Source: Klenkia sp. PcliD-1-E (GTDB taxonomy: Bacteria; Actinomycetota; Actinomycetes; Mycobacteriales; Geodermatophilaceae). From it: a stretch of 41,368 nt of DNA. The DNA lies in NCBI RefSeq assembly GCF_024124375.1, contig NZ_JAMXRZ010000026.1:1-41368 (forward strand), written 5' to 3'. This document shows, piece after piece, positions 36,054-39,753 of this stretch. Both the position numbers and the translations under genes were made by a program. Position 1 is the stretch's first letter. Every line of letters starts with the position of its first letter. Below the pieces are notes generated by a model. The model had not been told where the DNA came from. It saw nothing but the letters and a program-made list of their open reading frames with translations, and ran no database searches.

Positions 36054-36767
36054 TCAGGTGTGCAGGCCGCACTCCACCTTGTTCCGCCCGGCCCAGCGCC
36101 CGGCGCGCGGGTCCTCGCCGGGGGCGACCGGGCGGGTGCACGGCGCGCAGCCGATCGAGGCGTACCCGACCTCGACCAGCGGGTTGACCGGCACCTGGTG
36201 CTCGGCGGTGTACCGGTCGACGTCGTCGGCGCTCCAGGCGGCCAGCGGGTTGACCTTGACCATGCCGCGCGTGGCGTCCCAGTCCACGACCCTGGTGCCG
36301 CGGCGGGTCTCGGCCTCGTCCCGGCGCACGCCCGAGCCCCAGGCGGAGAACCCGGCGAGGGCGCGGGCCAGGGGCTGCACCTTGCGCATCGCGCAGCACA
36401 GGTCGGGGTCGCGGTCGTGCAGCTGCGGGCCGAACTCGGCGTCCTGCTCGGCGACGGTCTGCTCGGGCTGCACCGACAGCACCCGGATGTCGGTGACCGA
36501 GGCGATCCAGTCGCGGGTGCCGAGGGTCTCGGCGAAGTGGTAGCCGGTGTCGAGGAAGACGACCTGGACGCCGGGGTGCGCGCGGCCGGCGAGGTGGGCG
36601 AGCAGGCCGTCGGCCATGGAGGAGGTCAGCGCGAAGGAGTCACCGAAGGTCTCCCCGGCCCACCGCAGGACGGCGAGCGCCTGCGCTCGAGGGTCGGCGA
36701 TGTCCTCGAAGCGGGCATCGGCCTCGGCGGCCAGCTCGGGCGTCGGCTCGACCAGGGATGTCGTCAC
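36054..36767 (-). CDS. cysH: assimilatory adenylylsulfate (APS) reductase
   Basis: 237 residues. The P-loop-like TSSMADGLLAHL and LDTGYHFAET motifs mark the PAPS/APS reductase family, and the C-terminal KVECGLHT holds catalytic Cys233. The pairs Cys124-125 (LCCAMRK) and Cys207/Cys210 (IGCAPCTR) are the 4Fe-4S ligands that distinguish APS reductase from the cluster-free PAPS reductase. It turns APS into sulfite for the sulfite reductase encoded upstream. GTG 36767 overlaps the zinc-ribbon stop by 4 nt. Confidence 0.94.
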   Translation of the reverse strand: MTTSLVEPTPELAAEADARFEDIADPRAQALAVLRWAGETFGDSFALTSSMADGLLAHLAGRAHPGVQVVFLDTGYHFAETLGTRDWIASVTDIRVLSVQPEQTVAEQDAEFGPQLHDRDPDLCCAMRKVQPLARALAGFSAWGSGVRRDEAETRRGTRVVDWDATRGMVKVNPLAAWSADDVDRYTAEHQVPVNPLVEVGYASIGCAPCTRPVAPGEDPRAGRWAGRNKVECGLHT

Positions 36768-36925
36768 GGCTGCTCCACTCCTGTTCCCGTCGTCCGCAGG
36801 GCGAAGGTCCGCAGGCACGACCCGCAGTGCCATTCTCCCTCGGTCTCGCGCGGCCGCAGGGTCTCCTCGCCGCAGTACGGGCAGTGGAACGGCGGGAGCT
36901 GCCGGACCCTTCCCTCGCCGCTCAG
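36764..36925 (-). CDS. small zinc-ribbon protein between sulfite reductase and cysH
   Basis: About 53 residues with two Cys pairs: HCPYCGEETLRP and WHCGSCLRTFALR, a rubredoxin/zinc-ribbon type knuckle. No ATG is available. CTG 36925 overlaps the sulfite reductase stop as CTGA and has GAGGAG 8 nt upstream; an in-frame GTG at 36934 would have its ribosome site immediately adjacent, so I favour CTG. The stop overlaps the cysH start. Its place suggests a helper (electron carrier or zinc factor) for sulfite or APS reduction; the function is unknown. Confidence 0.75.
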   Translation of the reverse strand: MSGEGRVRQLPPFHCPYCGEETLRPRETEGEWHCGSCLRTFALRTTGTGVEQP

Positions 36926-38580
36926 CGCAGCCACTCCTCGTCGGCGCGGGCGGCGTAGCCGGCGAAGGTCTCGCCCTCGGTGCGGTGCTCGAGGTAGCCG
37001 CGCAGCACCCGCTCGACGTAGTCGGCGGTCTCGGTGGCGGCGACCTTGTGCCCGCGCAGCTTGCGGCCGATGGAGGACTCGAACCCGAGGTGGCCGCCCA
37101 GGTGCACCTGGAAGCCCTCCTCCCCGCCCACGACCATCCCCTTCAGGCCGATGTCGGCGGTCTGGAAGCGGGCGCAGGAGTTGGGGCAGCCGTTGACGTT
37201 GATGGTCAGCGGGGTGTCGAACTCCGGCAGTCGGCGCTCGAGCTCGGCGGTGAGCTCCTTGGCCCGGCCCTTGGTCTCGACGATGGCCAGCTTGCAGAAC
37301 TCGATGCCGGTGCAGGCCATGGTCTGCCGGCGGAAGACGCTCGGGCGGACCAGCAGGTCGTGCTCGGCGAGCGCCGCGACGGCGTCCTCGACCTGGTCGT
37401 CCGGGACGTCGAGGACGACCAGCTTCTGGTCGGCGGTGGTCCGGATGCGGCCCCGCCCGTACCGCTCGGCGATGTCGGCCACGGTCGCCAGCAGCTCGCC
37501 GCCGATCCGGCCGGTGTGCAGCGCGAAGCCCAGCGCGTTGGTGCCGTCGACCTGCGCCATGACGCCGACGTGGTCGCGCTGGTCGGTGGCCGGCCGCTCG
37601 GGGGCCGGGCCGTCGGGCAGGGTGTGGTGCAGGTACTCGTCCTGCAGCACCTGGCGGAACTTCTCCGGCCCCCAGTCGGCCATCAGGAACTTGATCCGGG
37701 CGTGGGTGCGCGAGCGCCGGTAGCCGTAGTCGCGGAAGACGCCGCAGACCCCGGCCCACACGTCGGCGACCTGGTCGGGCCGGACGAACACGCCCAGGCG
37801 CTCGGCGAACCGGGGATTGGTCGAGAGCCCGCCGCCGACCCACAGGTCGTAGCCGGCCTCGCCGGCGGCGTCGCGGACACCGACGAAGGCGACGTCGTTG
37901 ATCTCGTGGTTGGTGCAGTGGTGCGCGCAGCCGGAGATCGAGGACTTGAACTTGCGCGGCAGGTTGGAGAACTCCCGGTCGCCGAGGTACCGGTTCACGA
38001 CCTCGGCGACGGCGGGGGTGGCGTCCAGCACCTCGTCGTCGAGCACCCCGGCCAGCGGGCAGCCGAGGATGACGCGGGGGGTGTCGCCGCACGCCTCCGT
38101 CGTCGACAGGCCCACGGCCTCCAGCCGCTCCCAGATCTCGGGGACGTCCTCGATGCGGATCCAGTGCAGCTGCACGTTCTGCCGGTCGGTGACGTCGGCG
38201 ACCCCGCGGCCGAACTCGGTGGAGATGCCGGCGACGACCCGCAGCTGCTGCGCCGACAGCTGCCCGCCGTCGATGCGCACGCGCAGCATGAAGTAGGCGT
38301 CCTCGAGCTCCTCGGGCTCCAGCACGGCGGTCTTCCCGCCGGGGATGCCCTGGGCGCGCTGGGTGTAGAGGCCCATCCAGCGCATCCGGCCGCGCAGGTC
38401 GCCGGGGTCGATGCCGTCGAAGCCGGTGCGGGCGTAGACGTCGAGGATCCGCTGGCGGACGTCGAGGCCGTCGGAGTCCTTCTTCATCCGCTCGTTGGGG
38501 TTGAGCGGCTCGCGGTAGCCGAGGGCCCACTGGCCCTGCCCCTTCTGGGCCGTGCGGCTGGGGCGGGTGGGGGAGGACAC
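36922..38580 (-). CDS. ferredoxin-dependent sulfite reductase (NirA/SirA type)
   Basis: 552 residues. Siroheme and 4Fe-4S ligands are Cys423, 429 (TACTGIEFC-like MACTGIEFCKLAI) and Cys465, 469 (NGCPNSCARF). Tyr72 and Cys164 have the same 92-residue separation as the Tyr69-Cys161 crosslinked pair of M. tuberculosis NirA, which supports sulfite rather than nitrite as substrate. It makes sulfide for cysteine synthesis. GTG 38580 has AAGGAG 7 nt upstream. The first gene after the leader peptide. Confidence 0.94.
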   Translation of the reverse strand: MSSPTRPSRTAQKGQGQWALGYREPLNPNERMKKDSDGLDVRQRILDVYARTGFDGIDPGDLRGRMRWMGLYTQRAQGIPGGKTAVLEPEELEDAYFMLRVRIDGGQLSAQQLRVVAGISTEFGRGVADVTDRQNVQLHWIRIEDVPEIWERLEAVGLSTTEACGDTPRVILGCPLAGVLDDEVLDATPAVAEVVNRYLGDREFSNLPRKFKSSISGCAHHCTNHEINDVAFVGVRDAAGEAGYDLWVGGGLSTNPRFAERLGVFVRPDQVADVWAGVCGVFRDYGYRRSRTHARIKFLMADWGPEKFRQVLQDEYLHHTLPDGPAPERPATDQRDHVGVMAQVDGTNALGFALHTGRIGGELLATVADIAERYGRGRIRTTADQKLVVLDVPDDQVEDAVAALAEHDLLVRPSVFRRQTMACTGIEFCKLAIVETKGRAKELTAELERRLPEFDTPLTINVNGCPNSCARFQTADIGLKGMVVGGEEGFQVHLGGHLGFESSIGRKLRGHKVAATETADYVERVLRGYLEHRTEGETFAGYAARADEEWLR

Positions 38581-38636
38581 GGGCGGGCTCCTTCGCGCAG
38601 GTGCGCGGTGTGCTGCGGGGGACTGGGAGGCGAGGC

Positions 38637-38719
38637 TCAGAACCAGCGGCGACAGGCGGCGCTCACGACGCGGCCCAGGTCGACGTGCAGGCGCGCGACC
38701 AGGGGCGTGCCGCGGTCAG

Positions 38720-38723
<4 letters not shown>
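38637..38723 (-). CDS. 28-aa cysteine leader peptide
   Basis: MTDRGTPLVARLHVDLGRVV followed by SAACRRWF. It matches the 'putative leader peptide' pattern placed before sulfur genes in actinobacteria (Arg-x-His-x-Asp-Leu-x-Arg-Val-x-Ser-x-x-Cys). The single Cys24 uses TGT, uncommon in this GC-rich DNA, four codons from the stop. Ribosome stalling there when cysteine is low would control the sulfite reductase gene 56 nt downstream. The GTG overlaps the cysC stop (GTGA), so it lies inside the operon. A CGCGCA/TGCGCG hairpin precedes the AAGGAG of the next gene. Confidence 0.8.
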
Positions 38724-39256
<533 letters not shown>

Positions 39257-39270
39257 GGCGGGGAAGTCAA

Positions 39271-39753
39271 TCAGTCGACCGGGACGGCCCCGAACGAGCG
39301 CCAGGCGCTCTCGACCTCGGCCAGCTCGGCCACCGCGGCGGGCAGCTGCCCCGCGACGACGTCGGCGAGGGTGACCTGCTCCAGCACCCGGCGGTAGGAG
39401 TCGCGGGCGGCCACCCAGACGCTGGTCAGCTCCTGGGCGACGCCGGGGTAGGTGGCGTCCTCCGGGCGCTGGCCGTGCACCTCGGCGAGGAAGCCCTGCT
39501 CCACCCGCATGACCCGGGCGATGGACACCTCCGACGGCGGCAGCGCCAGCCGGTAGCCGCCGTCCCGGCCGCGCTGGCTGGTCACCAGCCGGGCGTGCTG
39601 CAGGTCGCCGAGGATGGCCTGCAGGAACCGGGACGGGATGCCCTGGGCCTGCGCGATGCGGTCGCAGGTGAGCGACTCCGGGCTCGCGGCGGCCAGTTCC
39701 AGGGCGGCCCGTACCGCGTAGTCGACCCGGGCGGAGATGCGCACGACGGCCAT
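39271..39753 (-). CDS. Rrf2-family regulator (CymR-like)
   Basis: 160 residues. The winged helix has VDYAVRAALELAAASPESLT, IPSRFLQAILGDLQHARLV and SQRGRDGGYRLALPP, all standard for Rrf2. It has only one cysteine (in LTCDRIAQ), so the three-Cys Fe-S site of IscR is missing; this resembles CymR, the cysteine repressor. As first gene before cysC it probably controls this operon and itself. ATG 39753 is used; GTG 39744 is an alternative. Its promoter must lie in the neighbouring coding region because the divergent gap is only 23 bp. Confidence 0.9.
   Translation of the reverse strand: MAVVRISARVDYAVRAALELAAASPESLTCDRIAQAQGIPSRFLQAILGDLQHARLVTSQRGRDGGYRLALPPSEVSIARVMRVEQGFLAEVHGQRPEDATYPGVAQELTSVWVAARDSYRRVLEQVTLADVVAGQLPAAVAELAEVESAWRSFGAVPVD

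Follow-up and report, generated by a model that had tools for sequence, protein, structure and literature searches.

On the minus strand of the window, by which we mean the whole 41,368-nucleotide stretch of Klenkia DNA analysed here, a gene for an Rrf2-type regulator (39753-39271) is followed by cysC (39256-38720), a short leader frame (38723-38637), sir (38580-36922) and cysH (to 36054). The features on which the argument turns are these:

39271..39753, minus strand: Rrf2-type regulator (TIGR00738, 94.5 bits, cut-off 73.3), with a 14 nt gap to cysC
38720..39256, minus strand: cysC, APS kinase (TIGR00455, 184.6 bits, cut-off 138.7; PF01583)
38731..38741, minus strand: TGTGGGAGACT, extended -10 promoter-like element in the last cysC codons, 7 nt before the leader GTG
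38734..38737, minus strand: GGAG, Shine-Dalgarno-like, 10 nt upstream of the leader start, in 9/9 of the genus
38720..38723, minus strand: GTGA, leader start on the cysC stop, kept in 9/9 genus genomes
38637..38723, minus strand: leader ORF, GTG start, 28 codons, TGA stop, peptide MTDRGTPLVARLHVDLGRVVSAACRRWF
38652..38654, minus strand: single Cys codon TGT at H+11, proposed sensing codon (TGT in 188/188)
38581..38636, minus strand: leader-sir spacer, C-rich, 56 nt
38588..38593, minus strand: AAGGAG, Shine-Dalgarno-like, 7 nt ahead of the sir GTG
36922..38580, minus strand: sir/nirA-type sulfite reductase, presumed regulated gene (PF01077 and PF03460 above cut-off)
36054..36833, minus strand: cysH, (P)APS reductase (NF002537, 250.9 bits, cut-off 154)

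The NCBIfam equivalogs match sir but score below their cut-offs, and the cysH coordinates are those of the open reading frame as listed, the real start of which may lie further downstream. A small frame with two CxxC pairs (HCPYCGEETLRPRETEGEWHCGSC; 36764-36930, minus strand) lies between sir and cysH and overlaps the start of the listed cysH frame. Against the CymR model the Rrf2-type gene scores 58.9 bits, below that model's cut-off of 195. A gene of the same type, CymR-like though under that cut-off, precedes the leader at 30 of the 32 loci from other genera of the family (Geodermatophilaceae), in one of them on the opposite strand, and could possibly provide a second layer of control.

The leader frame and its relatives

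The first-pass annotation had described a cysteine leader peptide of sulfur genes abutting cysC, with a GTG start that forms GTGA with the cysC stop and a single TGT, a codon rare in the window, close to its own stop. This description holds up well. The 28-residue frame is indeed found at 38637-38723 (minus strand), its GTG at 38723 overlapping the cysC TGA (38722-38720); the only Cys of the peptide is residue 24 of 28, encoded by TGT at 38654-38652, and codon usage in 32 window frames that were selected for their codon bias, cysC not being one of them, gives 115 TGC against 2 TGT. The frame is more than a chance opening, as is clear from its matches to leader models, from the recurrence of its motif before sir in relatives and from the retention of the GTGA within the genus.

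In an hmmscan against NCBIfam the leader reaches 28.9 bits (E 6.3e-7) with NF042936, the model of the Ms4527A Cys-rich leader, and 25.7 bits (E 6.2e-6) with NF042934 (cis_reg_atten, a putative leader peptide), where its core is aligned over 17 of the 19 profile positions. Because both scores lie below the curated cut-offs (45 bits for NF042936 and 27 bits for NF042934), we do not file the leader as a member of either family but take it as a relative. One leader from another Geodermatophilaceae genus scores still lower (21.9 bits against NF042934, from a typed peptide), so the two models may simply be narrow. As in attenuators of the mycobacterial kind, a short frame stands 56 nt upstream of sir, with cysH next on the same strand; the polycysteine tract of that kind is absent, the peptide having one Cys, and 38 of the 41 family leaders have one Cys in their conserved part. 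Rfam returned two matches in window positions 38400-39000, with E values of 4.5 and 4.8 and scores far under the gathering score, and none in the regions of 7 relatives, while a tRNA scan of four loci gave nothing informative.

To place the leader among its relatives we used two sets of sir loci. The gene itself is present in all 9 genomes of the genus, in 104 of 112 Geodermatophilaceae and in 187 of 246 genomes of a class sample. The first set comprises 140 regions upstream of sir (40 from the family and 100 from the rest of the class) and the window, hence 141; a leader with the shared motif precedes sir in 131 of them, the window included, and in all 41 belonging to the family. No leader was found in the other ten (L067, L084, L087, L089, L090, L106, L107, L122, L124 and L152). 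The second set, of 80 named sir loci, has a leader in 78, with none found in L205 and L218, and 61 of its leaders are sequences absent from the first set. All of our statistics count loci, although the loci are related; the first-set leaders with TGT span 24 families. In four of the ten leaderless regions (L067, L107, L122 and L124, from genomes G133, G147, G220 and G231) the general leader model matches the opposite strand, which would fit a leader acting on a divergent gene. One second-set leader, L231, carries HVDFLRIRSA, yet has no Cys before its stop, which reflects either a lost sensor or a sequence error in a metagenome assembly.

The junction with cysC was compared across related genomes, a check proposed with the original annotation, and the GTGA overlap proved to be retained in every one of the nine genus genomes. 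Of the 32 other family loci, 17 have a same-strand cysC upstream, and in the remaining 15 none was found. Where it is present, its stop falls 27 to 109 nt ahead of the leader in 15 cases; in L022, which belongs to another genus, the GTGA overlap recurs, and in L049 the cysC frame runs past the leader start. The overlap is thus a trait of the genus with one parallel case.

The TGT codon at H+11

Whenever a sir leader has Cys at position H+11, counted from the His of the motif, the codon is TGT: this is so in 188 of 188 leaders, with TGC in none. The count is 128 of 128 in the first set and 60 of 60 among the new leaders of the second, the 61st being the Cys-less L231, and the three first-set leaders that have their Cys elsewhere also use TGT, at H+9 (L057) and at H+12 (L082 and L148). 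As a control, the Cys codons of 80 sir genes number 635 TGC versus 27 TGT, and the other Cys codons after the His in first-set leaders 33 TGC versus 10 TGT; in the same leaders His is CAC 124 times versus CAT 6, and Asp GAC 111 times versus GAT 20. Three further leaders in this genome, which precede genes named by eye as a TauE/SafE-like permease, a DUF4395-sulfurtransferase pair and a cysteine-dioxygenase-like gene, have TGT at the key place in 3 of 3 and TGC for their remaining Cys. Among the best 30 Ms5788A-type loci (one of them a duplicate) TGT occupies this place in 29 of 29, and among the best 30 general-model loci with a locus in 30 of 30, these two sets overlapping each other and partly the sir set.

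The base that follows TGT is also restricted, being C in 154 leaders, T in 24, A in 10 and G in none (n=188), compared with G at the start of 450 of 1024 codons at eight other leader positions and after 11 of 47 other Cys codons. Since the residues after TGT vary (R, L, P, C, M, Q, S, H and I), the constraint looks like one on bases. The peptide ahead of the codon is conserved, yet several of its positions differ in the third base; the Arg at H-2, for instance, is CGC in 74 leaders, CGG in 39, CGT in 39 and CGA in 36.

With one codon fixed at one position and a one-step synonymous change unseen, the most economical reading is that the ribosome has to stop at precisely this codon, UGU being read more slowly by a single tRNA-Cys(GCA), and we infer that the UGU at H+11 is the sensor codon; the conserved peptide before it suggests help from the nascent chain. 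A UGU fixed at this one position, when other Cys codons are mostly UGC, would mark the sensing codon in a control system found throughout the class. In the literature on cysteine leaders and UGU that we searched, a coverage outside of which most subscription papers fall, no report of a fixed UGU without a following G was found.

Two other explanations of the fixed codon were rejected. If TGT were kept for base pairing, its third base should be paired, and the modelled pairing is mixed (above 0.8 in 49 and below 0.2 in 32 of 128 leaders, with a mean of 0.57); nor can TGT be an artefact of how leaders were picked, since the picking accepted Cys by either codon. A separate bias concerns Ser, which at H+8 is AGY in 174 of 179 leaders and at H+7 in 25 of 101 (as AGC). 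We did not adopt the AGY at H+8 as a second sensor: inertia under a strict demand for Ser can explain it, albeit unproven, and is plausible because going from AGY to TCN takes two steps by way of another amino acid, whereas going from TGT to TGC takes one.

The promoter-like element in the cysC tail

An extended -10 promoter has an A and a T four bases apart with TG ahead of them. Elements of this form, TGnnAnnnT, stand 6-7 nt before an in-frame RTG in all 41 family leaders, in 99 of 131 leaders overall and thus in 58 of the 90 outside the family; AnnnT alone occurs at the same spacing in 117 of 131, and the control of 3954 other ATG or GTG triplets in the same regions gives 19 full elements and 185 AnnnT, where it should be borne in mind that the count allowed any in-frame ATG or GTG 6-25 codons before the His, which favours leaders somewhat. 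In the second set 64 of 78 leaders have the full element. Given the spacing of 6-7 nt, the RNA start would fall at the leader start codon. A sigma-70 scan, which requires a -35, found no promoter at the locus.

In this genus the element, TGTGGGAGACT, spans the cysC codons GGT/GCT GTG GGA GAC, in a gene that otherwise seldom has A or T at third positions: these make up 45 of 1602 third bases in the 9 genus cysC genes (178 aligned codons). Across the 178 columns the GGA of the element is the sole codon ending in A or T that all 9 genes share; the T of GGT/GCT is likewise invariant. Because invariant codons are as such frequent in these cysC genes (65 of the 138 columns that have a single amino acid), only the A and T bases indicate selection on the DNA. 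With the element intact at the very end of cysC, the leader probably heads a leaderless transcript of its own, which we take as the main route, read-through from cysC being possible besides.

Similar arrangements turn up at two other places. In 5 of the 9 genus genomes (L016, L017, L018, L020 and L021, the window not being among them) the cysC start too has TGnnAnnnT 6-7 nt ahead of it, some 690-720 nt upstream of sir, which suggests a leaderless cysC transcript there. At a second, Ms5788A-like leader of the Klenkia genome itself (L004, C125:1799-1855, minus strand), which precedes DUF4395 and a sulfurtransferase, a thioredoxin-like gene, named by eye, stops just before TGTTACCCT-N7-GTG, so that leaderless starts placed directly after a gene may be a common arrangement.

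It had been proposed earlier that this leader, unlike others of its kind, does not front a transcript but sits inside the operon, where its translation may be coupled to that of cysC. The supposed difference is not supported, for the promoter-like element of the family recurs in the cysC tail at an unchanged distance from the leader. Coupling as such fares better in part, for the GGAG found in 9/9 of the genus permits it, even as the leader's own promoter-like element in the cysC tail speaks against the leader's being reached from cysC alone. In its strict version the leader would be read only from the transcript that brings in cysC (Rrf2-cysC), by ribosomes reinitiating at the overlapping GTG once they have translated cysC. 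We regard this as improbable. The GTGA overlap of the whole genus and of L022 does argue for it, as does the GGAG 10 nt upstream, given that GGAG, AGGA or GAGG at 5-11 nt is seen in just 5 of the 32 other family loci and 3 of the 74 loci outside the family with an assigned start, and a terminator scan found none between cysC and sir. But it leaves unexplained why all nine genomes keep the family element intact at its usual spacing by means of A/T-ending codons that are rare elsewhere in cysC, and why the 15 other family loci where cysC was not found upstream keep the same leader behind the same element. A version in which both promoters matter, the leader filtering a basal read-through as well as a strong leaderless mRNA and GGGAGACT acting as ribosome site in the one and as -10 in the other, can be entertained only tentatively: GGGAGACT is fixed in 9/9 and each function needs bases within it, but the GGAG may be just the local form of the -10.

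We thus prefer the reading in which the leader begins its own leaderless mRNA, while the GGAG leaves possible room for its translation from cysC read-through mRNA. A rise of sir and cysH without cysC, which had been suggested as a possible effect of the arrangement, would fit either an own transcript or a coupled one. More generally, the locus suggests that a regulated leaderless promoter may be written into the coding end of the preceding gene, and that an overlap of frames need not mean coupling.

Read-out of the leader and likeness to known systems

Judging from the sequence comparisons as a whole, we think it likely that the element is a leader ORF through which sir and cysH are controlled in response to cysteine. 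We propose that RNA polymerase would start at or beside the leader GTG, producing a leaderless mRNA on which the leader is read at once. When cysteinyl-tRNA is scarce, the ribosome would halt at the UGU of H+11, with four more codons to read before the stop, and sir would be expressed; when cysteine is plentiful, the ribosome would finish the leader and sir would stay low. What would suit UGU for sensing is its decoding by G-U wobble, together with a next base that is not G. An mRNA reading through from cysC could also carry the leader, with GGAG as its ribosome site. How might the stall be passed on to sir? In this genus it could be either through Rho-dependent termination in the C-rich spacer or through access to the sir start.

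Rho-dependent read-out, in which the C-rich stretch after the leader stop would be a Rho site shielded by the stalled ribosome, is in our view a tentative option. A Rho mechanism for mycobacterial cys leaders was put forward in 2005, and the authors themselves called it rather weak (PMC1262725). C outnumbers G over the first 40 nt past the leader stop in 9 of 9 loci of the genus and in 128 of 131 overall, and does so at least twofold in 58 of 131; the corresponding number for a 40-nt stretch before the leader is 8 of 131. This is a matter of composition, however; outside the family C reaches twice G in just 26 of 90 loci, and C-rich spacers could instead serve to remain unstructured. Sequestration of the sir ribosome site, that is, translation attenuation as described for mycobacteria, appears on our models rather unlikely here. 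What speaks for it comes from other genera of the family, for which 30 of 32 loci were aligned. There GCGCTG at the leader end could pair with a CAGCGC of the spacer (95.6% of cells paired), or its GCGCT part with a GCGC flanking the sir Shine-Dalgarno (98.0%), and either helix would preclude the other. Yet covariation is nearly nil, with one two-sided change in the first helix and none in the second, and GCGCT at the leader end, present in 29 of the 32 other family loci, is found in 0 of 9 of the genus and 6 of 90 loci outside the family. Moreover, when a stall was modelled at 15 of the 41 family loci (all 9 of the genus and 6 others), the opening of the sir Shine-Dalgarno rose by more than 0.1 in only 1 of the 9, and among the six others access went up by more than 0.1 in two and down by more than 0.1 in two.

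A bolder generalisation, which we offer as a conjecture with less confidence than the control of sir and cysH itself, is that actinobacterial sulfur leaders share a single-codon cysteine sensor rather than a codon-run attenuator. The nascent chain RxHVDLxRVxSAx in the exit tunnel would prime the ribosome, and the trigger would be a lone UGU at H+11, never with G as the next base. UGC would not be tolerated, since it would be the slow wobble reading of UGU by tRNA-Cys(GCA) that gives sensitivity to charging, and perhaps also to a sulfur-dependent tRNA modification (ms2i6A37); here the sensor and promoter would be folded into the last cysC codons. If this is true, a UGU codon dependent on ms2i6A37 would sense sulfur supply itself. 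In any case, the question of how a leader with a single Cys senses cysteine can now be reduced to one base, UGU versus UGC. In attenuators of the trp type a codon for the end product senses charged tRNA, and the run of such codons matters; in the sir leaders, by contrast, the peptide around the codon is conserved class-wide while third bases vary.

Among the closest known systems is the mycobacterial leader Ms4527A. Canestrari et al. in 2020 reportedly carried out experimental work on cysteine-responsive attenuators of Mycobacterium smegmatis, including Ms4527A before nirA/sir. The Klenkia leader shares with Ms4527A the downstream gene, a homologous motif, a promoter-like element at leaderless spacing and Cys near the stop. 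It differs in having one Cys where Ms4527A has a run, in a start that sits on the cysC stop, in a score below the NCBIfam cut-off and in a 56-nt spacer that lacks the pairing element seen in related genera. A second leader of this genome resembles Ms5788A (NF042933), which in mycobacteria precedes cysA2/Msmeg_5788, at 42.6 bits (cut-off 45; typed peptide); it has TGT at the key place as in the sir leader, but it has three Cys, two of them TGC, and belongs to a different operon.

Leaders ahead of mycobacterial cys operons were already predicted in 2005 (PMC1262725), and a small ORF on a leaderless mRNA before nirA/Msmeg_4527 appears in Fig. 7C of Shell et al. 2015 (PMC4633059). Papers citing the attenuator work call the mycobacterial leaders polycysteine (PMC13236596, PMC9031893 and PMC9094748). 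In Rhodobacterales, uORFC-8-2 before cysS likewise has Cys codons in a short upstream frame, but in the description that PMC8632094 gives of it these are two in tandem and mostly UGC, with an intrinsic terminator and no fixed UGU. By its sequence, the Klenkia element is a variant of the known cysteine leaders, one with a single Cys and with a promoter-like element and start folded into the end of cysC.
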